Source: Glycomyces luteolus
GTDB lineage: Bacteria > Actinomycetota > Actinomycetes > Mycobacteriales > Micromonosporaceae
Direction: 5' to 3'
Assembly: GCF_027622875.1 (NCBI RefSeq)
Contig: NZ_JAPZVP010000015.1
Span: 1-64,000, forward strand
Length of the DNA stretch: 64,000 nt
Shown here: one piece after another, positions 1 to 9,108 of the stretch
How positions within the stretch are numbered: the first letter of the stretch is position 1
How the letters are laid out: the number at the start of each line of letters is the position of its first letter
Notes under the pieces: model-generated
What the model was told of the DNA's origin: nothing
What the model saw: the letters and a program-made list of their open reading frames with translations, nothing else
Database searches by the model: none
Program-made: the position numbers and the translations under genes

Positions 1-128
1 GAGTGGCTCATCGAGGGCCTTTCTGGCTTGGCGTGTCTTGTAGCGATTCACACCGAACCAGAAGGTCCTCTCCTCGTCTCAGCCCGACTCAGCTCGTGAG
101 GTGTTCACAACCTCCCGAGACAGAACAG

Positions 129-980
129 CTAGCGCTTCGACGCTCGACGACGTTCCCGATAGGCCTCCGCGAGGAGGCGTACCGCTTCGGGAACGTCGTC
201 CTTGAGGTATCGGCGGGCGAGGCGGCGGGGTTCGGAGAGCATCCGGAAGAGCCATTCGGTGCCGGTGCGCTGCATCCATTTGGGGGCGCGGCGGCGGTAC
301 CCGGCGATGAAGTCGATGCTCGCGCCGCAGCCGAGGAACCAGGCGTCGGGGGCGACGGCGCGGAGGCGCACCGTCACGTGCTCCTGTTTGGGGAAGCCGA
401 GGCCGACGTAGACGAGGTCGGGGGCGGCGGCCTCGACGCGTTCGACGAGGGCGCGCCACTGCGAGTCGTCCCGGTCGAAGCCCATGGGCGGGCACCAGGC
501 CCCGACCACCTTGAGGCCCGGGTAGCGGGCTTCGAGGAGGTCGGCGGCGCGTTCGGTGGGGCGCGCGGCGCCGTCCGGGGTGCCGCCCAGGAGGGCGATG
601 CGGAGGCCGCGGGTCGCGGCGGCCTCCGAGAGGGACCAGACGAGGTCCGAGCCCGCGACGCGGGCGGGCAGCGGCGTTCCGGCTACTTTGGATGCCCAGA
701 CGAGGGGCGCGCCGTCGGCGACCACGAGGTCGGAGGCGGCGATGATCGCCCGCAGCTCGCGGCTCCTGCGCGCGGCGGCGACGATGTCGACGTTCGGCGT
801 GACGATCTGGCCGCCGCGCCCCGCCTCGATGGCGTCGATCACGCGCGCCACCGCCTCGGCTTCGGTGACCGGGTCGATCGCGATGCCGCCCAAGGACACC
901 CGCTTCGCGGGGCGCGACTGCGGCCGAGGGGAAGACGCGCCGCTGCCGCGGTCCGCGCGCGAAGGGCCCAAACGCTCCAT
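129..980 (-). CDS. WecG/TagA/CpsF-family glycosyltransferase
   Basis: 283 aa. This family transfers N-acetylmannosamine or a related sugar onto lipid-linked intermediates at the inner face of the membrane during teichoic acid or exopolysaccharide assembly. Visible family features are TPNVD (about residue 61), VADGAPLVW (about 87-95), GLGFPKQE, and a C-terminal block with FIAGYRRRAPKW. The ATG at 980 was chosen because residues upstream do not resemble the family and the core begins about 27 residues in. It is divergent from the sulfotransferase gene, and together with the GT2 gene this suggests an exopolysaccharide or cell-surface glycan locus. Family assignment is firm; the exact sugar is unknown. 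Confidence 0.85.
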   Translation of the reverse strand: MERLGPSRADRGSGASSPRPQSRPAKRVSLGGIAIDPVTEAEAVARVIDAIEAGRGGQIVTPNVDIVAAARRSRELRAIIAASDLVVADGAPLVWASKVAGTPLPARVAGSDLVWSLSEAAATRGLRIALLGGTPDGAARPTERAADLLEARYPGLKVVGAWCPPMGFDRDDSQWRALVERVEAAAPDLVYVGLGFPKQEHVTVRLRAVAPDAWFLGCGASIDFIAGYRRRAPKWMQRTGTEWLFRMLSEPRRLARRYLKDDVPEAVRLLAEAYRERRRASKR

Positions 981-1057
981 GCGATCAGACGTTAGAGGTC
1001 CGCGTGCGATTTTCCCGGAATTTTGGCCACAGGGCGTGTCCCCAACCCCACCCCGAG

Positions 1058-1068
1058 TCGTTATACGA
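1058..1068. promoter_or_regulatory. Small palindrome in divergent promoter region
   Basis: The 174-bp gap between the two divergent surface-glycan genes holds the palindrome TCGTTATACGA. It overlaps TATACG, which could serve as a -10 element. It may be an operator or promoter for either gene. This rests on sequence shape only. Confidence 0.25.
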
Positions 1069-1154
1069 ATCATCAAGGGGCATCTGCAGGTTTCCGAGCC
1101 AAGCTCGGATCGCCGGCCCCGAAAGCAGTGGAGTACCAGGTGAGCGAGGGACCA

Positions 1155-2174
1155 GTGAGCGTGAAGATCGCCGACACGGCCGAGCAGTCCGAGCACCGCG
1201 TCAAGGTGGTCTTCATCGGAGGACTCGGACGCAGCGGCACGACGCTCCTCGAACGCCTGCTCGGACAGCTGCCCGGAGTGGTCCCGCTCGGCGAGATCAC
1301 CCACCTGTGGGAACGGGACCTGGTCGGCAACGAGATGTGCGCGTGCGGAGCCACGTTCTCGCACTGCGAGTTCTGGCAGCGGATCGGCCGGCGCGCCTTC
1401 GGCTCCTGGGACCAGGTGGACATCGAGCGGCTCAACGCCCTGAAGGCCACTGTGGACCGAACCCGGCACATCCCGGCGCTCGCGTCGAAGCGGCTCGCGC
1501 CCGCGCAGCACCAGCTCGTCACCGAGTACGCCGAGTACTTCGAGAAGATCTACACCGCCGCCGCCAAGGACACGCGGGCGCGGGTCGTGGTCGACTCCTC
1601 CAAGCACGCCTCGCTCGCGTACTGCCTGCGCTGGTCGCCGAAGATCGACCTGCGGGTGCTGCACGTCGTGCGCGACTCGAGGGGCGTCGCCTACTCGTGG
1701 ACGAAGAAGGTGGCCCGCCCCGAGTCCCCCACGGGCGACCAGATGACCCGCTACTCCCCCGCCAAGGCCGCGATGCTGTGGAACGCGCAGAACGCCGCGT
1801 TCAGCCTCCTCGCGCGGCGCGGCGTGCCGGTGCGGCGGGTCCGGTACGAGCGCGTCATCCAGCGCCCCCGGAAGGTGATCGCCTCGCTCGGCCGGTTCTG
1901 CGGGCTGGACCTGGCGGAGTCGGACTACAACTTCATCGGGGACGGCTGGGCCGACCTGGGCCCGAGCCACTCGGCGGCCGGCAACCCGATGCGGTTCACC
2001 GTGGGGCGCATCCCGATCTATCCCGACGAGGCCTGGACCGCGGACCTGCCCGACGGCACCCGGCGGATGGTCTCCACCCTGACCCGGCCCCTCCTGGGCC
2101 GCTACGGCTACCTCGACGACGAGGAGGCCCCTGTGGACGAACCCGTTCTGGAAGAGGTGACCGCCCGTGACTGA
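1155..2174 (+). CDS. PAPS-dependent sulfotransferase family protein
   Basis: 339 aa from the GTG at 1155. The protein should transfer sulfate from 3'-phosphoadenylyl sulfate to an acceptor, probably a glycan or lipid. The 5'-phosphosulfate loop is visible as GGLGRSGTT (residues 22-30), and the 3'-phosphate-binding segment as HVVRDSRGVAYSW, preceded by VDSSKHASLA. GTG 1155 was chosen because GAGGGA sits about 5 nt upstream. GTG 1140 and 1161 are alternatives, and a longer upstream extension lacks similarity. It overlaps the following GT2 gene by 8 nt, so the two are probably cotranscribed. CysD, CysN and CysQ are encoded about 32 kb away and could supply activated sulfate and remove PAP. Confidence 0.82.
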   Translation: MSVKIADTAEQSEHRVKVVFIGGLGRSGTTLLERLLGQLPGVVPLGEITHLWERDLVGNEMCACGATFSHCEFWQRIGRRAFGSWDQVDIERLNALKATVDRTRHIPALASKRLAPAQHQLVTEYAEYFEKIYTAAAKDTRARVVVDSSKHASLAYCLRWSPKIDLRVLHVVRDSRGVAYSWTKKVARPESPTGDQMTRYSPAKAAMLWNAQNAAFSLLARRGVPVRRVRYERVIQRPRKVIASLGRFCGLDLAESDYNFIGDGWADLGPSHSAAGNPMRFTVGRIPIYPDEAWTADLPDGTRRMVSTLTRPLLGRYGYLDDEEAPVDEPVLEEVTARD

Positions 2175-3072
2175 CTGGCCTTCGGTGGGCGTCGTGATCC
2201 CCACGCACAACCGCCCCCAGCAGGTGCGCGCCGCACTGCGCTCGGTGCTGACCCAGTTCTACCCCGGTGAACTCGAAGTGGTCGTGGTCTTCGACCGCGC
2301 CAAAGTGGACGAAGCGCTCGCGGCGGACGGCGGGCGGCCCGTGCGGGTGGTCAAGAACGACCGCACGCCCGGTCTCGCGGGGGCCCGGAACACCGGGATC
2401 ACCGCACTTCGCACCGATCTCGTGGCGTTCCTCGACGACGACGACGAATGGCTGCCCGGGAAGCTCGCGACGCAGGTCGCCGCGCTCGGCACCGAGGCCG
2501 AGCTGTGCACCACCGCGATCGAGGTCGACTACCGGGGCCGCCGGAACCCGCGCCTGGCGCAGAAGACCATGGTGCGGCATGTGGACCTGCTCAGGTCGCG
2601 CATGATGATGCTGCACTCCTCGACGTTCCTGTTCCGCCGCTCGGCACTGCTCGGCGGGCTCGGCCTCGTCGCGGAGGACGCGCCCGGGAGCCAGAACGAG
2701 GACTGGGACATGCTGCTGCGCGCCTCCAGGCGGCGTCCGATCGCTCACGTGGACGTGCCGTACGCGCTCGTCAACTGGGCCGGTTCGCACTTCGAGACCC
2801 GTTGGGACACCAAGATCTCCTCGCTGCGCTGGATCCTCGACCGGCACCCGGAGATCCACGGCAGCCCCGAGGGCGCCGCGCGCGTCTACGGCCAGATCGC
2901 CTGCTGGCACGCCGCCACGGGCGACCGCAAGGAGGCCCTGCGCTGGGCGGTCAGGGCGACGAAGGCGAACCCGGGCGAGCCGCGGGCGGCGGTCGCCGCC
3001 GCCGCGGCGGCGGGCATCGTCGGCGTCCCGGCGGTGATGGCCGCACTGCACCGGCGCGGCCGCGGCATCTGA
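2167..3072 (+). CDS. Family 2 glycosyltransferase
   Basis: 301 aa with a GT-A fold. The N-terminal VVIPTHNRP motif (about residue 9) begins the nucleotide-sugar domain, and the acidic FLDDDDEW (88-95) holds the DXD metal/nucleotide site. NEDWDM near residue 178 fits the GT2 catalytic-base region. There is no transmembrane segment, so the enzyme is likely cytosolic or peripheral. The C-terminus (about 235-300) is Ala-rich and helical, TPR-like in feel. The GTG start overlaps the sulfotransferase stop by 8 nt, suggesting translational coupling. It probably extends the glycan that the sulfotransferase modifies; this pairing is inference. Confidence 0.88.
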   Translation: MTDWPSVGVVIPTHNRPQQVRAALRSVLTQFYPGELEVVVVFDRAKVDEALAADGGRPVRVVKNDRTPGLAGARNTGITALRTDLVAFLDDDDEWLPGKLATQVAALGTEAELCTTAIEVDYRGRRNPRLAQKTMVRHVDLLRSRMMMLHSSTFLFRRSALLGGLGLVAEDAPGSQNEDWDMLLRASRRRPIAHVDVPYALVNWAGSHFETRWDTKISSLRWILDRHPEIHGSPEGAARVYGQIACWHAATGDRKEALRWAVRATKANPGEPRAAVAAAAAAGIVGVPAVMAALHRRGRGI

Positions 3073-3105
3073 GTCGGCAACGGGGCGTTCAGGAGTTGGA
3101 CGCCC

Positions 3106-3150
3106 TTTATTCACTTCTTAGCGGTGCCTTAACGCCCGCCGCCGTACCTT
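3106..3150 (+). promoter_or_regulatory. CTTA direct repeats (11-bp period) plus -10 element upstream of the DUF4956-VTC operon
   Basis: Half-sites TTTA (3106), CTTA (3117) and CTTA (3128) lie at exact 11-bp spacing. A TACCTT -10-like hexamer follows at 3145, 17 bp after the last half-site. The geometry matches OmpR/PmrA-family response-regulator boxes that overlap or replace the -35. An alternative promoter, TTGGAC (3096) with a 17-bp gap to TAGCGG (3119), overlaps the same site. The same array occurs upstream of the gene at 6844. Confidence 0.6.
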
Positions 3151-3205
3151 CTCCCAGACCGACTGAGCGAACACCGCTCCGGCGACGTCACCGAGGAGGA
3201 ACACC

Positions 3206-3802
3206 GTGGGTCTCGCACTCGCCCTGGCACTGCCCGTCAACCTGTTCGCCATCACCGTGCTCGCGTGCGCGATCTACTACCGGCGCCACCACCGCACCGA
3301 CCTGGCGCTCGCCTACGTGGCGCTGAACGTGGGGGTCTTCGCCGTCTCGGCGCTCATGCTCTCGCAGCAGGTGAGCCTCGGCCTGGCGTTCGGGCTCTTC
3401 GGGGTCCTCTCGATCTTGCGGCTGCGCTCCGACCAGATCTCGCAGCGGGACGTCGGCTACTACTTCACGGCACTCGCCCTGGGCCTCATCAACGGGATCG
3501 GGGCGTCGCGCCCGGCGGTGATGATCGGCCTCAGCGTGCTGCTGGTGCTCACCATGTACATCGCCGACCATCCGAGGCTCGCGAACCGGTCGCGGCACCG
3601 CCTGATCGTGCTCGACACCGTGCACCGCGACGAGACCGCGCTGCAGGCGGACCTCGAACGGCGCCTTGGCGGGACGGTGCGCAAGTTCGAGGTGATCGAC
3701 ACCGACTACGTGCGCGAGACGATGACCGTGGACGTGCGGTTCCGGCCTTCGGCCGAGACCCCCGCGAACCCTGACCGCACCTACCCGATCGCGAGGGTCT
3801 GA
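3206..3802 (+). CDS. DUF4956 family membrane protein
   Basis: 198 aa. An N-terminal membrane segment (about 3-22) is followed by two or three more (about 37-105), then a soluble C-terminal domain of about 80 residues. The RLRSDQISQRDVGYYF stretch is characteristic of DUF4956. Family members are regularly encoded beside VTC-domain proteins, as here, and are thought to act with them in membrane-associated polyphosphate or surface-polymer functions; the biochemistry is not settled. The GTG start has a strong GAGGAGGAA site 6 nt upstream. The stop overlaps the ATG of the VTC gene, so the two are translationally coupled. An 11-bp-period CTTA box lies about 70-100 bp upstream. Confidence 0.85.
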   Translation: MGLALALALPVNLFAITVLACAIYYRRHHRTDLALAYVALNVGVFAVSALMLSQQVSLGLAFGLFGVLSILRLRSDQISQRDVGYYFTALALGLINGIGASRPAVMIGLSVLLVLTMYIADHPRLANRSRHRLIVLDTVHRDETALQADLERRLGGTVRKFEVIDTDYVRETMTVDVRFRPSAETPANPDRTYPIARV

Positions 3803-4626
3803 TGATCACCCGAGACGGGCTGGACCTGTTCGCGCCCATCGACCTCGCCGCGGTGGTGGACGCCGCGAACCTGCAGACCCGCGTCGACTCCAAATACCTG
3901 CTCACGCCGGAGGCATACGGCCGCTTCCGCGACCGGCTCGCCCGGGTCGGCGACTGGCGGTGCCTGGAGATCGAGGGCCGCCGCCGGTTCGCGTACGAGT
4001 CGATCTACTTCGACACGCCGGAGCTGCTCACCTACCGGCAGCACCGCCAGGGGCGCCGGTTCCGGTTCAAGGTGCGCTCACGCACCTACGTCGACTCCGG
4101 AGCCTGCGCGTTCGAGGTCAAACTCAAAGGCGCTCGGGCGGACACGGTGAAGGAGCGCATGGACTACCGCGCCGCCGACGCCGGGCGGCTCGCGCCGGAC
4201 GCCGCCGACTTCCTCGCCGACACGCTGCATCGCGCCTACGGCATGGCGGTGCCGCTGGGAATGGCCCCGCGGGTGCGCACCGACTACCGCCGCCACACGC
4301 TCGTGGACCTGGAAGCGGCCGTTCGGATCACCTGCGACGAGGAGCTTCGCTTCAGCGGTTCAACGGGTTCGGCGGCGGCCCGGCCGCTGTGCCTGGTCGA
4401 GGTCAAGTCGGCGCAGGCGGGCGGGCCCGTCGACCGGATGCTGTGGCGTTCAGGGGCGCGGCCGGTGTCGGTCAGCAAGTACTGCCTCGCCGCCGCCGCG
4501 CTCTACCCGTGGCTCGGCGCGAACCCTTGGGCGCGTGCGTACAAGACGTGCTTCGGATCCGGGTCGGGTCTTGAACGGTGCCGTACGGAGCGGACGCGGC
4601 ACTCAGCACTCGCAGTCGACTCGTAG
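3802..4626 (+). CDS. VTC-domain protein (polyphosphate polymerase-like, triphosphate tunnel fold)
   Basis: 274 aa. The VTC domain is the catalytic tunnel of eukaryotic polyphosphate polymerase and belongs to the CYTH/triphosphate-tunnel superfamily. The sequence shows the expected pattern: RVDSKYLL near the N-terminus, YESIYFDTPELLTYRQHR with basic residues, RFRFKVRSRTY, FEVKLKG, RVRTDYRRHTL, and a late CLVEVKS followed by SKYCLAAAAL. Alternating basic and acidic tunnel residues are retained, so the protein is probably active, but its product is unproven. The last 35 residues after PWLGANPW do not look like the family and may be an extension. The start overlaps the DUF4956 stop. The gene faces the histidine kinase gene tail-to-tail. 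Confidence 0.85.
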   Translation: MITRDGLDLFAPIDLAAVVDAANLQTRVDSKYLLTPEAYGRFRDRLARVGDWRCLEIEGRRRFAYESIYFDTPELLTYRQHRQGRRFRFKVRSRTYVDSGACAFEVKLKGARADTVKERMDYRAADAGRLAPDAADFLADTLHRAYGMAVPLGMAPRVRTDYRRHTLVDLEAAVRITCDEELRFSGSTGSAAARPLCLVEVKSAQAGGPVDRMLWRSGARPVSVSKYCLAAAALYPWLGANPWARAYKTCFGSGSGLERCRTERTRHSALAVDS

Positions 4627-4773
4627 CGGATTCGCGGCGCGTCGCAGGCGGCGACGGATCGTCGCATGATCCGAAGCCTTCCGCGGCATGGCAACCCGAT
4701 TCTCGGCCCTCGCGAGATCCAGTGTCCGAGGGCCGCGGCTTGAGCGGCCGTCGCTGCGATGGCCGCTCCGTCT

Positions 4774-6042
4774 TCAGCCCAGTTCGAGTCTGATGAGCGC
4801 GCCCTTGCCGCCGTGGCCGGCGCCGAACACGAGCTGGCCGCCCGAGGCCGCGGCGGCGCGTCGTGCGATGTCCAGGCCCAGTCCGGTCGAGCCGCCGCCG
4901 GAACGGCCCCGTTCGAACACGGCTGCGTCCGGCAGGCCCGGTCCCTCGTCGGCGATGTCGATGATCGCGCCGCCGTCGGACGTGGCCCAGAGGCGGACCT
5001 CGAACGCGGTCCCGTCCGGGGTGTGTGCGAAGACGTTCGCCAGCAACGAATCCATCGCCGCCGCGAGGTCCTCGGCCGACACCTTCACCGGCAGCGGTCC
5101 CGGAGCCAGCGAGACGCTGCATGCGCGGTCGGTGTCCTCGGCCAGCGCCGACCAGAACGCAAAGCGCTCGGCCACGACGGCGACCGCGTCGCACTCGGAC
5201 GCCCCGCGACCGGGCTTGCGAGCGTCGCGGATCGCGGCGTTCACGGCCCGCTCGACCTCGCTCACCGCTTCGTCTACGGTGGCTCGTTCGGTCGGGTCCG
5301 TGATCGCCTCGGCTTCGAGGCGCAGGACGGTGAGCGGGGTGCGGAGGCGGTGCGAGAGGTCGGCGACGCGTTCGCGTTCGGCCTCGAGGAGATCGCGGAT
5401 GCGGTCGGCGAGGGCGTTGAGGGCGATGCCGACCCGTTCGATCTCCGCGGGTCCCGCGGCGCCCGCCCTCGCTTCGAGGTCGCCATCGGCGAGGCGGTTC
5501 GAGACCTCGGCGAGGTCGGCGAGCGGCACCAGCAGCACCTTGGCCAGGCGTGAGGCCAGGAGCAGGCCGACCCCCAGGAGCACCAGGGCGATCGCGCCGA
5601 GCAGGAGCCATGACCGGCCGACTCCGGCCGTCAGCGCCTCATCATCCACATAGGCCCTCACAACGGCGTAGCCGCCGTCGGGAATGCGGATGCTGTTGAG
5701 GATCTCCCGCCCGCCTTCGGTCGCCGCGGTGAGGGACCGGCCCTGGACGGCGGCGAGTTCCACCGCGGACGACCGGGGCGCCTCCGCGCCGAACACGGTG
5801 CCGTCGGGCCAGAACACCGTCACCGGGAACTGGAAGCCGGTGTTCATGTGCGCGACCGAGCTCTCCAGCTGGGCCTTGTCGGAGGTGGGCACGATCGCGG
5901 TCACCAGGTTCGCCTCCTGCTGCGCGAGCGAGACCGCGCGCTCGGCGGCGGCGTTGCGAAGCATGAGCGCCAGCGGGATCGAGAACGCCAGCAGCGTCAG
6001 GGTCGCGATCCCGGCCACCAGGATCGTCAGTCGGGCCCTCAT
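4774..6042 (-). CDS. Two-component sensor histidine kinase
   Basis: 422 aa, OmpR-partner type. A transmembrane segment (about 5-27) is followed by an extracytoplasmic sensor of about 120 residues, a second TM (about 144-166), HAMP (about 167-222) and HisKA with the phospho-acceptor His231 in LSHRLRTPLT. The ATPase domain has an N box around SLLANVFAHTP, a G1 box DIADEGPGLP and a G2 box GSTGLGLDIA. ATG 6042 was chosen because it overlaps the regulator stop by 4 nt (ATGA) and starts just before the first TM. It probably senses an envelope signal and phosphorylates the adjacent regulator. The DUF4956-VTC operon and the exported protein flanking it are likely targets. Confidence 0.9.
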   Translation of the reverse strand: MRARLTILVAGIATLTLLAFSIPLALMLRNAAAERAVSLAQQEANLVTAIVPTSDKAQLESSVAHMNTGFQFPVTVFWPDGTVFGAEAPRSSAVELAAVQGRSLTAATEGGREILNSIRIPDGGYAVVRAYVDDEALTAGVGRSWLLLGAIALVLLGVGLLLASRLAKVLLVPLADLAEVSNRLADGDLEARAGAAGPAEIERVGIALNALADRIRDLLEAERERVADLSHRLRTPLTVLRLEAEAITDPTERATVDEAVSEVERAVNAAIRDARKPGRGASECDAVAVVAERFAFWSALAEDTDRACSVSLAPGPLPVKVSAEDLAAAMDSLLANVFAHTPDGTAFEVRLWATSDGGAIIDIADEGPGLPDAAVFERGRSGGGSTGLGLDIARRAAAASGGQLVFGAGHGGKGALIRLELG

Positions 6043-6731
6043 TCGCCCTCCAGCGGGTCGACGAGCTTGACGCCCACCCCGCGAACGGTGTGCAGGAACC
6101 GCGGCGCCTGCGCAGTCTCGCCGAGCTTGCGGCGCAGCCACGCGAGATGCACGTCGACGGTCTTGTCGGCGCCGCCGAAGGGCAGGTCCCACACTTCGGT
6201 GAGCAACTGGCGCTTGGGGACGACCGCCCCGGCACGCGCGGCCAGGAAGTGCAGCAGGTCGAACTCCTTGGGGCTCAACTCCAAAGCCCTGCCTTCGAGG
6301 GCGGCGGTGCGGCCCTTCGGGTCGATGCGCAGCGGACCCACGACCACCGTCTCGTCAACGGGCGCTCCGGCACCGGTGCGGCGCAGCACCGCTTGGATGC
6401 GGGCGTCGAGCTGCTTCGCGGTGAACGGCTTGACCACGTAGTCGTCGGCGCCCGCGCCGAGGATGCGGACGATCTCGTTCTCGTCGTCGCGGGCGGTCGC
6501 CACGATCACCGGCACGTCGGAGACGCCGCGGAGCATCCGCAGCATCTCGCCGCCGTCGAGGTCGGGCAGCCCGAGGTCGAGCACGACCAGGTCGGGACGG
6601 TGGTCGACCGCCGCGCGCAACCCCCTCATCGCGTCGGGGGCCGGGGCGACCTGGTGTCCGAGGTCTCTGAGGGACCGCAGGAGCGCGGTGCGGACGCGTT
6701 CGTCGTCCTCGATCAGGAGCAGCTGGGCCAT
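6039..6731 (-). CDS. OmpR/PhoB-family response regulator
   Basis: 230 aa. The receiver domain (about 3-115) has the acidic pair EDD at 8-10, phospho-acceptor Asp52 in VVLDLGLPD, and the conserved Lys in YVVKPFTAKQL. A winged-helix DNA-binding domain follows (about 130-225) with ELSPKEFDLLHFLA and a recognition region near TVDVHLAWLRRKL. It is the first gene of the regulator-kinase operon and shares the 112-bp divergent region with the gene at 6844. Three CTTA half-sites with 11-bp period lie in that gap, so both autoregulation and control of the divergent gene are plausible. Confidence 0.92.
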   Translation of the reverse strand: MAQLLLIEDDERVRTALLRSLRDLGHQVAPAPDAMRGLRAAVDHRPDLVVLDLGLPDLDGGEMLRMLRGVSDVPVIVATARDDENEIVRILGAGADDYVVKPFTAKQLDARIQAVLRRTGAGAPVDETVVVGPLRIDPKGRTAALEGRALELSPKEFDLLHFLAARAGAVVPKRQLLTEVWDLPFGGADKTVDVHLAWLRRKLGETAQAPRFLHTVRGVGVKLVDPLEGE

Positions 6732-6791
6732 GCGGGCACTCTATGCGGGACAGCAACACGGGGACAAGTCACGTACGAGCCGCCGTGAAGG

Positions 6792-6836
6792 CTTAGACCG
6801 GCCTTATCGCGGCCTTAACGTTCCAGTCGGCAAACT
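6792..6836 (+). promoter_or_regulatory. Three CTTA half-sites, 11-bp period, in the regulator/exported-protein intergenic region
   Basis: CTTA begins at 6792, 6803 and 6814. The second and third 11-mers are nearly identical (CGGCCTTATCG and CGGCCTTAACG). CAAACT at 6831, 17 bp after the last half-site, resembles a -10. This is the same spacing as upstream of the DUF4956 gene. It is probably the binding site of the adjacent OmpR-type regulator. The transcription start predicted from the -10 lies within a base or two of the ATG at 6844. Confidence 0.6.
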
Positions 6837-6843
6837 GGCGAGC

Positions 6844-7326
6844 ATGAGAAGGAACCTGGTAGTCAGCGGCTGGGTGGCGGCCGCGGTGGTCGCCGTCGGC
6901 GCGGGTATCGGCGCGGTGGCGCTGGCCCAAGGCGGGACCCTCGCGCCCCCGACCGAGCCGATGTCCGAGGACAGTGTGCAGGCGCAGCTCGACAGTATCG
7001 GCACCGCGACCCCGAGCGAATCACCGACGGCGACCGACGACGAGTCCTCGCCCTCGAGCGAGCAGACGACCGCGGGCGAGGAGATCATCGCGACCGACGG
7101 CGGCACCGTCATCGCCCGGTGCAACGGCACGGAAGTCGAGCTCGTCTCGGTCTCCCCCGCCCAGGGCTGGCGCACCGTGGGCGTCGACGCCGGGCCCGCC
7201 GCGACCGCCGCGTTCGGCTTCACCGACGACGATGACGATGACGACGGCCTGCACTACAAGGTCACCTGCGCCGACGGCGTGCCCGCGGCGGCGCTCCAGA
7301 ACACCGACGACGACGCCGACGACTGA
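6844..7326 (+). CDS. Exported or membrane-anchored acidic protein of unknown function
   Basis: 160 aa, family not recognised. An uncleaved signal anchor or signal peptide (about 5-28, with two Arg before it) is followed by a Ser/Thr/Glu-rich linker (about 35-75), a short compact region with one Cys pair (CNGTEVELVSVSP ... VTCADG), and Asp-rich stretches (FTDDDDDDDG and the C-terminus DDDADD) that could bind divalent cations. It is divergent from the two-component genes and carries their putative box, so it may be a target or accessory sensor. There is no clear ribosome-binding site upstream of the ATG, and the predicted transcript start nearly coincides with it, suggesting leaderless translation. 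Confidence 0.7.
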   Translation: MRRNLVVSGWVAAAVVAVGAGIGAVALAQGGTLAPPTEPMSEDSVQAQLDSIGTATPSESPTATDDESSPSSEQTTAGEEIIATDGGTVIARCNGTEVELVSVSPAQGWRTVGVDAGPAATAAFGFTDDDDDDDGLHYKVTCADGVPAAALQNTDDDADD

Positions 7327-7389: not shown

Positions 7390-7959
7390 TCATCGACTTC
7401 GGTGCGGGCCAAGGCCGTGCAGCCTGGCGAAGGCGGGGAACAGCCTTCCGTCGCAGGGCAGCCGCATTCCCGACCGGTGCAGGAGGTCGACGATCGCGCT
7501 GGCGCCCGCCTCGGTCAGCTTTCCTTCCCGCCAGATCTCCGCGAGCAGCCACAAGGTCCCGTGGACCACGACCGGGTAGCGGCTCGCGCCGTGGACCGCG
7601 GCGCGATCGTCGATCACCGCGGTGGCGTCGAATTCGTGGGCGACAGCGAGGACGCTGGCCTCGCCGAGGTTGCGGTCGCCCGCTCGCACGCGCTCGGACC
7701 ATTCAACGAACGCCAGCAGTCTGGCCTCCGTTTCGCCGACCTCCACCACTTGCATCCAGGCGAGTGTGAGGATCTGCTCCAGTTCGGGGTGGGTGCCGAC
7801 GCCGCGGCGGATCTCGTCCATCACGACGCTCGTGGTGAAGCAGGTACGGCCCAGCATCAGGTCGCTGAGCACATCGAGCCGGTCGGCTTTGGCGAAGTGG
7901 CTCAAACAGGTCGTGTCGAACACCAGCCGCTGCGCTCCGCCGCCTCCGGCGGCTACCAC
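7390..7959 (-). CDS. PIN-domain-like protein, probable toxin/nuclease partner
   Basis: 189 aa. The N-terminus reads LVFDTTCLSHF with Asp15 in the position of the first PIN acidic residue. DEIRRG (about 48) and a later Asp pair in VIDDRAAVHGA (about 115) would complete a Mg-dependent RNase site, and GEASVLAVA precedes it. PIN proteins of this kind (including DUF3368-like) act as RNases, often as toxins. The GTG start overlaps the stop of the upstream XRE/ImmA gene by 7 nt, so the two are translationally coupled as antitoxin then toxin. Only the operon structure and domain content support the toxin-antitoxin reading. It sits immediately downstream of the ATP synthase operon, where atpC would be expected. 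Confidence 0.75.
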   Translation of the reverse strand: MVAAGGGGAQRLVFDTTCLSHFAKADRLDVLSDLMLGRTCFTTSVVMDEIRRGVGTHPELEQILTLAWMQVVEVGETEARLLAFVEWSERVRAGDRNLGEASVLAVAHEFDATAVIDDRAAVHGASRYPVVVHGTLWLLAEIWREGKLTEAGASAIVDLLHRSGMRLPCDGRLFPAFARLHGLGPHRSR

Positions 7960-9044
7960 CCTTGGTCGCTTTCGAAATCCGGCAGCTCGGATTCGTCGAC
8001 GTGCCCCCGCATCAGCTCGGCCGCACGGGGTTTGGCTATCCAGCCCTCGCGGTAGGCGCGCATGATGGCGTGGGCGACGCTCGGCGGGACCCTGACCTTC
8101 TCCAGGTCCTGCTGCAACAGCCAGCCGATCGCGTCGCGAAGCTCGGCTTTCGTGGGCGTGGACGCCCCCCAGCGACGCGACTGCTTCGCGTCGATCAGGC
8201 CCGTGCGCTCAGCCTGCCGGAGCGCCAGCGACCATGAGACCTGGTATTCGGCGGAGAGCTTGACCAAATCGCCGCGTTCGAGGTGCGGGCCCCGCGCGGC
8301 CACCGCGTCCTCAGGCAGGAGCAGCTCGGCCGCGAAGGCGTCGATCGCCGCCTCCCGTTCCGCTTTCGAGGCGTGGATGTCCATGTCGCTGACGTATTCA
8401 TCGCCGAGCACCATGTGCCCCAGCTCGTGGGCCGCAGTGGACCGGCGCCGTACTACCGGCGCGGACAGGTTGATCACCGACACTGCCAGGTCGCCCTCGT
8501 GGATGCTGGCGCCTTCGCCGCCGTCCTCCAACTCGACGACCGTGAACAGCACGCCCGCCTGCTCGCCGATCTGCATGAGGCTGCCGAGCGGCTCATGGCC
8601 GAGCCCGAGCTGGCGGCGCAGCCAGCGGGCCGCGTCGCGCACATCGTCGGAAGAGGTTCGGGCGCTGGGGTACAGGAGGACCGGCTTGGGCTCGAACACG
8701 CCGATCTCGCAGAGCTGCTGCATATCGTTGAGCCAGGCCACCAGCGCCACGTCCAGGCGGAACGCCGCCGATTCTCCGACGGTGGTCTCCTCCGCCACGA
8801 TGCCGCTGCGCCGCGAGATCACCTCGGGCGGGTCGTAGAGGAACTGGCGCATCGGCATCCCGAGCGCACCGCTCAGCCGTGCCAGTTCCATGCCGTCGAT
8901 ACGGCGCGTGCCGGCCTCGATCTTGGCGATCATGGTGCGGTCGAGTCCGACTTCCCGACCGAGGTCCTCTTGGGAGAACCGCATGGCGGCGCGCGCTCGG
9001 CGCACACGCTCGCCGATCGCGGCCCAGCCTTCTTCGAGTTCCAT
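7953..9044 (-). CDS. XRE helix-turn-helix / ImmA-IrrE metallopeptidase fusion
   Basis: 363 aa. An N-terminal XRE HTH (about 10-65, FSQEDLGREVGLDRTMIAKIE) is followed by a linker of about 120 residues and a zinc-peptidase domain with HELGH at 206-210 and a downstream Glu-rich helix (EREAAIDAFAAELLLP). Proteins of this architecture regulate DNA-binding partners by proteolysis (ImmA of ICEBs1, IrrE/PprI) or serve as antitoxins. It is encoded just ahead of the overlapping PIN gene. ATG 9044 was chosen at the start of the HTH domain; the frame stays open upstream but is not family-like. It may autoregulate the pair and connect release of the PIN protein to stress; that role is inference. Confidence 0.85.
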   Translation of the reverse strand: MELEEGWAAIGERVRRARAAMRFSQEDLGREVGLDRTMIAKIEAGTRRIDGMELARLSGALGMPMRQFLYDPPEVISRRSGIVAEETTVGESAAFRLDVALVAWLNDMQQLCEIGVFEPKPVLLYPSARTSSDDVRDAARWLRRQLGLGHEPLGSLMQIGEQAGVLFTVVELEDGGEGASIHEGDLAVSVINLSAPVVRRRSTAAHELGHMVLGDEYVSDMDIHASKAEREAAIDAFAAELLLPEDAVAARGPHLERGDLVKLSAEYQVSWSLALRQAERTGLIDAKQSRRWGASTPTKAELRDAIGWLLQQDLEKVRVPPSVAHAIMRAYREGWIAKPRAAELMRGHVDESELPDFESDQGW

Positions 9045-9108
9045 GTTGCGATAATCGCACAATCGGTGCGACTTCCGCGACGGACACGCGCCGACCGATG
9101 CGCAATAT

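Follow-up and report, generated by a model that had tools for sequence, protein, structure and literature searches.

A shared 11-bp-period repeat array predicts a two-promoter regulon, including a DUF4956-VTC operon, for an OmpR-type response regulator of Glycomyces

We analysed a 64,000-nucleotide stretch of Glycomyces luteolus (contig NZ_JAPZVP010000015.1, positions 1 to 64,000, the whole of which is called the window here) and find that two promoters within it share an array of direct repeats with a period of 11 base pairs (bp), which predicts with high confidence a regulon tying a DUF4956-VTC operon and a gene for an exported acidic protein to the OmpR-type response regulator encoded beside them. 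From the 5' side, sulfotransferase-like and glycosyltransferase-like genes are followed by the DUF4956 and VTC genes on the plus strand, then by the kinase and regulator genes on the minus strand and the divergent exported-protein gene, with one array upstream of DUF4956 and the other in the intergenic stretch between the regulator and exported-protein genes. The half-sites described in an earlier, sequence-only reading of this DNA are present as it gave them (TTTA at 3106-3109 and CTTA at 3117-3120 and 3128-3131; CTTA at 6792-6795, 6803-6806 and 6814-6817), their spacing is exact, and a -10-like hexamer (TACCTT at 3145-3150, CAAACT at 6831-6836) lies in each case 17 bp from the start of the last CTTA. 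Computed here are the arrays, their spacing, their conservation, their co-occurrence with the regulator and the absence of one array together with its operon. The features of the locus are these:

3095 to 3098, plus strand: candidate degenerate fourth slot GTTG, 11 bp upstream of the DUF4956 array; the aligned Glycomyces promoters show a TTG-TCCG stretch there
3106 to 3131, plus strand: candidate operator array of the DUF4956-VTC promoter, TTTA-N7-CTTA-N7-CTTA, kept in 11/11 operon-bearing Glycomyces and at loci L132, L153 and L156
3145 to 3150, plus strand: -10-like hexamer TACCTT, beginning 39 bp past the start of the first half-site
3206 to 3802, plus strand: DUF4956 protein, 198 amino acids (Pfam PF16316, E 5.5e-60, 202.4 bits, above the cut-off of 30.6)
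3802 to 4626, plus strand: VTC-domain protein, polyphosphate-polymerase-like, its start overlapping the DUF4956 stop (Pfam PF09359, E 7.2e-28, 98.2 bits, above the cut-off of 23)
4774 to 6042, minus strand: sensor histidine kinase, 422 amino acids, with sensor region, HAMP, HisKA and HATPase
6039 to 6731, minus strand: OmpR/PhoB-type response regulator, 230 amino acids (Response_reg PF00072, E 2.8e-24; Trans_reg_C PF00486, E 1.4e-23)
6738 to 6743, minus strand: candidate regulator -10, TAGAGT, 6 nucleotides upstream of the ATG, putative and read by eye
6792 to 6817, plus strand: candidate operator array CTTA-N7-CTTA-N7-CTTA for transcription of the exported protein, in the gap between its gene and the divergent regulator gene
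6831 to 6836, plus strand: -10-like hexamer CAAACT, 7 nucleotides upstream of the exported-gene ATG
6844 to 7326, plus strand: exported or anchored Asp-rich protein, 160 amino acids, with an N-terminal hydrophobic helix, a C-terminal beta domain and two invariant Cys

The strongest support for this regulon comes from related genomes, where the comparison of upstream regions proposed in the sequence-only reading shows both arrays to be conserved within the genus and again outside it. In a sample of 22 Glycomyces genomes (labels such as G004 and G006 denote individual genomes) the exact triple array occurs in 12, and the identical 12 carry the regulator at E 1e-70 or better, with 87-100% identity when the window's own genome is included and 87-91% in the other 11; DUF4956 is found at 79-99% identity in 11 of these 12 regulator-bearing genomes. 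Gene order round the locus is maintained across the array-bearing Glycomyces, the distance from the glycosyltransferase gene to DUF4956 being enlarged in G010 (2013 bp) and G006 (1102 bp). The laboratory species G. harbinensis is among the carriers of the locus. In G004 (L059) the genes for the glycosyltransferase and the kinase meet end to end, with neither this DUF4956-VTC operon nor the array that goes with it, while the kinase, the regulator, the exported protein and the exported-gene array are retained and a more distant DUF4956-VTC pair lies elsewhere in the genome. A refined pattern derived from these same promoters (YTTA-N7-CTTA-NC-N5-CTTAAC, one mismatch allowed) gave 23 matches over the 22 genomes, 23/23 of them at these two promoters, with 3 for the reversed control; they fall two per genome in 11, one in G004 and zero in the 10 regulator-free genomes. 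Since the pattern was drawn from the promoters themselves, the weight lies in the absence of matches elsewhere. At the DUF4956 promoter the distal half-site reads TTTA in 9/11, CTTA in 1/11 and GTTA in 1/11.

A [TC]AnnnT hexamer, a motif found at 0.8% of plus-strand window positions, stands in all 12 exported-gene and all 11 DUF4956 promoters of Glycomyces at a fixed offset of 39 bp from the start of the first half-site, that is 17 bp from the start of the last one, and inspection by eye showed no -35-like hexamer between the second and third half-sites, where the usual spacing would put one. At the exported-gene promoter the half-sites are invariant (2.00 bits) and the spacers average 1.71 bits. 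There the ATG follows the -10 by only 6 or 7 nucleotides in the Glycomyces promoters, which suggests that the exported-gene transcript may be leaderless, and a similar -10 precedes the regulator ATG, as read by eye.

Outside Glycomyces, a second genus of the same GTDB family (G034) has all five genes in unchanged order, DUF4956 at 60% identity and the regulator at 72%, together with VTC, the kinase and the exported protein; its DUF4956 promoter bears four half-sites and its exported-gene promoter three. Both arrays are present in Allosalinactinospora lopnorensis (L153), and the DUF4956 array is present in a metagenome-assembled genome (L156) whose contig stops short of the other promoter. In 5/5 out-of-genus triple-array promoters a -10-like [TCG]AnnnT occupies the same offset. 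Of the 14 further DUF4956 regions examined, that of G034 is the only one with a triple TTA array. An additional search of 8 genomes, in which the pattern's -10 had been placed one base off, matched both G034 promoters (one mismatch each) and three copies of another G034 sequence, the DUF4956 promoter alone in the L153 genome and nothing in the six others, L156 included though its array is real; this result was not used and no count was drawn from it.

We consider it very probable that these elements work as one pathway, running from kinase to regulator and through the arrays to both promoters, with feedback from the exported protein and a role in phosphate polymer. With its extracytoplasmic sensor the kinase (4774-6042) would detect some condition of the envelope, and it would phosphorylate the OmpR/PhoB-type regulator (6039-6731), which would bind the three (C/T)TTA half-sites head to tail, one helical turn apart, over the place of the -35, and so recruit RNA polymerase to the DUF4956-VTC promoter and to the divergent exported-gene promoter. 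The exported acidic protein is likely to modulate either the kinase or the envelope, in the manner of CseA, which has such a feedback role, and the probable task of DUF4956-VTC is synthesis or transport of a phosphate polymer at the membrane. The sequence-only reading had likewise proposed that the regulator activates both promoters; the shared array, the co-occurrence and the conservation (12/22 genomes, G034 and Allosalinactinospora) uphold the connection; binding and activation, like the feedback and the enzyme activity, are inferred. Its suggestion of autoregulation fares less well, the regulator having no array of its own, and what stands is a distance of 61 bp between the start of the shared array and the regulator start codon. 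Its idea of a sensor dedicated to VTC did not survive the comparison, as regulator, kinase and exported protein occur together in other genera of the family, more widely than the VTC target, and G004 retains regulator and array without this DUF4956-VTC operon.

Several observations weigh against this pathway or limit it, and we take them with the alternatives that they favour. At the DUF4956 promoter the spacers are as conserved as the half-sites (1.81 versus 1.78 mean bits), and genus conservation there therefore does not single out the half-sites, whose predicted identity comes mainly from the exported-gene promoter and the out-of-genus copies. Moreover, TTCAC-like units sit in the 11-nucleotide register of CTTA in most Glycomyces DUF4956 promoters (L057-L067), as partial units with GTTCACC-, GTCCGCC- and ATTCACG-like cores when judged by eye. 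PhoP binds PHO boxes made of 11-nucleotide GTTCACC-like repeats of this TTCAC type, and phosphate control of a polyphosphate-polymerase-like gene would be sensible; the DUF4956 array might thus be, or overlap, a PHO box, with the adjacent system controlling the exported gene alone. We think this unlikely, given that TTCAC-type units were not seen by eye in G034, which keeps its CTTA array, nor in the exported-gene promoter, and that the TTA array tracks the adjacent regulator. It is possible that PhoP and the adjacent regulator co-regulate the DUF4956 promoter. Half-sites that cover the -35 region would suit a repressor as well, and the adjacent regulator might bind both arrays and repress, which we hold to be just as improbable as the PHO box. 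Repression is made less likely by the constant 17 bp to the -10, kept in 23/23 Glycomyces and 5/5 out-of-genus triple-array promoters, together with the lack of any -35 recognised by eye where the half-sites lie, such a layout being that of PhoB-type activated promoters.

Further afield the array itself differs. Streptomyces monomycini (L212) has related genes yet no triple array; its DUF4956 shows a single GTTAA site 17 bp before TAGCGT and its regulator one CTTA-N7-GTTA pair lacking a -10-like hexamer 17 bp on. The regulator is matched at E 1e-70 or better in 183/200 wider-family genomes, paralogues counted, and from these searches we retained 30 regulator loci for comparison, 12 from Glycomyces and 18 from other genera. 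An NTTA-N7-NTTA pair lies within the first 160 bp before the regulator, ahead of the divergent exported gene, at 14 of the 18 non-Glycomyces loci, 11 of the 14 having [CG]ATAGT exactly 50 bp past the pair start; G034, whose array is situated further out, is among the four loci with no pair in that interval. None of the 14 has NTTA 22 bp past the pair start and 7/14 have C/GTTA at 33 bp, so the family-level arrays appear to skip one slot. The exported-protein family adjoins this regulator in these other genera too, a divergent exported protein being readable at 15/18 of the non-Glycomyces loci with a C-terminal pattern in common with the window's. Searching 81 genomes with a family-level pattern, STTAACC-N4-CTTAGNGT, gave 16 sites in 15 of them (reversed control 1), of which 10 lie between regulator and exported protein, 6 ahead of other exported-looking proteins and zero ahead of DUF4956. 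We count the 14 pairs and these 10 sites in favour of the regulon.

The sites ahead of other exported-looking proteins are closely similar (C/G)TTAACC-N4-CTTAG sequences (L240, L245, L250, L238, L247 and L248), with PepSY proteins downstream in 3/3 tested and a related kinase in 2 of these 6 stretches. Because so similar a pattern precedes PepSY proteins, other regulators probably share the site type, which seems to be a property of a clade of regulators. On our reading, control of the exported gene came first, and some lineages recruited DUF4956-VTC or lost it. The same observations would fit a non-adjacent OmpR-type regulator of this clade binding the window's arrays, an explanation that we rate as very improbable: the array is absent from the 10 regulator-free Glycomyces, each of which has 50 to 80 first-look candidates of this type. 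That the arrays are chance or neutral sequence we can practically dismiss in view of the cross-genus conservation, the fixed -10 offset and the lack of triples at the other periods tested (see below), even with one count in its favour. In the 64-kb window CTTA-N7-CTTA-N7-CTTA with up to 2 mismatches has 2 matches, against a mean of 0.07 over 100 shuffles, and the genome scan proposed in the sequence-only reading, with up to 1 mismatch, returns just these two promoters in 5.74 Mb (49 contigs); the reversed pattern, however, also has 2 matches in that genome. Since the numbers are equal, the raw genome count is not above chance and was dropped as proof, and the evidence comes from placement and conservation instead.

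DUF4956-VTC pairs are frequent in actinobacteria, with DUF4956 matches at E 1e-30 in 43/121 family genomes and at least 521 relatives confirmed. We took the best 80 of these at least 521 relatives, retrieved with Glycomyces and relatives aligned as the query, as a set of named loci; being nearest relatives of a chosen query, they do not give natural frequencies of the types, which were labelled from tblastn matches, with neighbourhood counts left raw. All 80 are counted, including those with guessed start codons and a few whose upstream windows seem misplaced (e.g. L158, L165 and L171). A VTC match lies within the fetched stretch at 79/80. The adjacent regulator is the one described here at 11 loci, a second OmpR-type regulator at 45 (44 with its kinase) and neither at 24, the last group including L202, where the second kind's kinase sits at the contig end. 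The second regulator, whose reference has 38% identity to the window's, lies a median of 105 bp (range 73-4248) from DUF4956 and occurs in Nocardiopsis, Nonomuraea, Amycolatopsis, Actinomadura, Kribbella and Dactylosporangium (e.g. L160, L166 and L207), as well as at L165, filed as Glycomyces fuscus.

Within 160 bp ahead of DUF4956, a [CGT]TTA triple of period 11 is present at 10/11 loci of the regulator described here, 0/45 of the second kind and 0/24 of neither, and a [CT]TCA triple of that period at 0/11, 19/45 and 7/24 respectively, the strict TCA triple thus being missing from 26/45 second-kind loci; both unit patterns were picked after viewing these same promoters. At any other period from 8 to 15 neither triple occurs in any group. 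These unit-specific counts supersede an earlier generic three-unit repeat score, which separated the present regulator's loci weakly (mean 4.09 at period 11 versus 3.05-3.55 at nine others, with 2/11 at 4.5 or more), did better for the second kind, where 26/45 loci reached at least 4.5 at period 11 but just 0-3 did so at other periods, and gave 7/24 in the neither group at period 11, though 4 at period 10. The same genome has a second VTC locus (G000 contig 9, L234:4586-10235), in which genes for an OmpR-type regulator, a kinase, VTC, DUF4956 and CotH, all above their Pfam cut-offs, run in one direction, with GAGTTCAC repeated 11 bp apart ahead of VTC; that regulator has 39% identity to the window's and makes a third kind of two-component system beside VTC.

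The presence of at least three kinds of two-component system beside DUF4956-VTC suggests that control by envelope signals is part of the module's biology. At present we can only speculate, as a doubtful though not negligible idea, that DUF4956-VTC is a signalling-coupled envelope module to which different kinase-regulator pairs have been attached repeatedly because what the kinase monitors, together with its exported partner, is the module's own product or its activity at the membrane. Comparable are certain antibiotic-sensing kinases that monitor how their own transporter is working. In that case the operon would serve as a target and at once as part of the sensor, and these kinases could lead to the function of VTC proteins in bacteria. 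On the regulon itself, the condition under which the kinase fires offers a route to DUF4956-VTC function, now that a precise putative operator, a predicted regulon of two promoters and a specific kinase can be pointed to.

The regulator scores below the cut-off of each named regulator family with which we compared it. CseB is the top NCBIfam match, at 177.4 bits against a cut-off of 350 (NF041733), MtrA reaches 171.5 against 300 (NF040689) and PmrA 137.6 against 330 (NF007928), and the best 25 of the 99 NCBIfam matches, QseB among the named regulators concerned, all fall under their own cut-offs. The likeness to the CTTAA of PmrA/QseB boxes drawn in the sequence-only reading thus holds for the OmpR/PhoB type of the protein, fails for membership of PmrA or QseB, and is kept as an analogy. 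In the CseA-CseBC system of Streptomyces an exported protein is similarly encoded beside a kinase-regulator pair. The window's exported protein differs in having no Pfam family (at E 0.1); its model has a confident seven-strand beta domain and an N-terminal helix, and two Cys are invariant in an alignment of 20, and as the fold has no PDB match below E 0.001 we offer no function from it. BceRS-BceAB-type modules consist of a kinase-regulator pair encoded beside the membrane module that it controls, and the window's pair likewise adjoins a membrane module, here DUF4956-VTC in place of an ABC transporter.

Among systems compared through their published descriptions, the PmrA box (CTTAAT and CCTAAG) shares with the window's arrays a winged-helix OmpR-type regulator, head-to-tail tandem half-sites and a CTTA core in one half-site, according to the portions consulted of PMC3973317, and differs in having two half-sites where there are three here (four in G034) and the host is actinobacterial. 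CutRS of Streptomyces is similarly an actinobacterial kinase-regulator pair with few conserved targets; the CutR site, TAWATAAA in the excerpted text of PMC12802291, is in neither array as read, a comparison by site and not by protein, and we do not assign the arrays to the CutR regulon. In the excerpts of PMC7112168, DUF4956 accompanies CotH and polyphosphate polymerase close to the pel clusters that streptococci and clostridia carry, and also in bifidobacteria, which resembles the window in placing DUF4956 beside a polyphosphate-polymerase-type gene and differs in its CotH and Pel genes, with no such group mentioned there as under two-component control; this genome has a CotH gene at its second VTC locus, and none was seen next to the pair in the window.

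A DUF4956 gene also appears in an iron expression table of Bacteroides thetaiotaomicron (PMC10434189) and in a xylo-oligosaccharide expression table of Bifidobacterium adolescentis (PMC6848847), and the excerpts of these two papers, like those of PMC7112168, state neither a role nor a control for it. VTC-domain genes lie in a Clostridium perfringens locus that the passages at hand of PMC4983038 and PMC2879425 do not assign to a two-component system. Among the matches listed, with subscription papers and preprints outside the scope, there was no report of two-component control of VTC or DUF4956. The mechanism proposed is of the textbook OmpR/PhoB type; what is new is the target and its repeated pairing with differing two-component systems.

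A profile of 12 VTC relatives weakly matches yeast Vtc4 (3g3q, E 1.2e-4), with the KY and RxRxY motifs aligned and the alignment stopping before the last motifs. The genome also encodes a PPK1-type polyphosphate kinase, and the VTC pair is therefore unlikely to be just a housekeeping polyphosphate maker. The sensor region of the kinase is modelled at a predicted local distance difference test score of 92 and has CACHE/PAS-like matches, the best at E 5.2e-4, together with 3cwf at 1.8e-3, which we take to be the PhoR sensor of Bacillus subtilis. Beyond the exported-protein gene, window positions 7390-9045 hold a PIN-like gene (DUF3368 at 24 bits, under the cut-off of 27.3) and, with it, an XRE-like gene; the two may form a toxin-antitoxin pair. 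A PIN-like relative stands at differing spots of the locus in G008 and G010.

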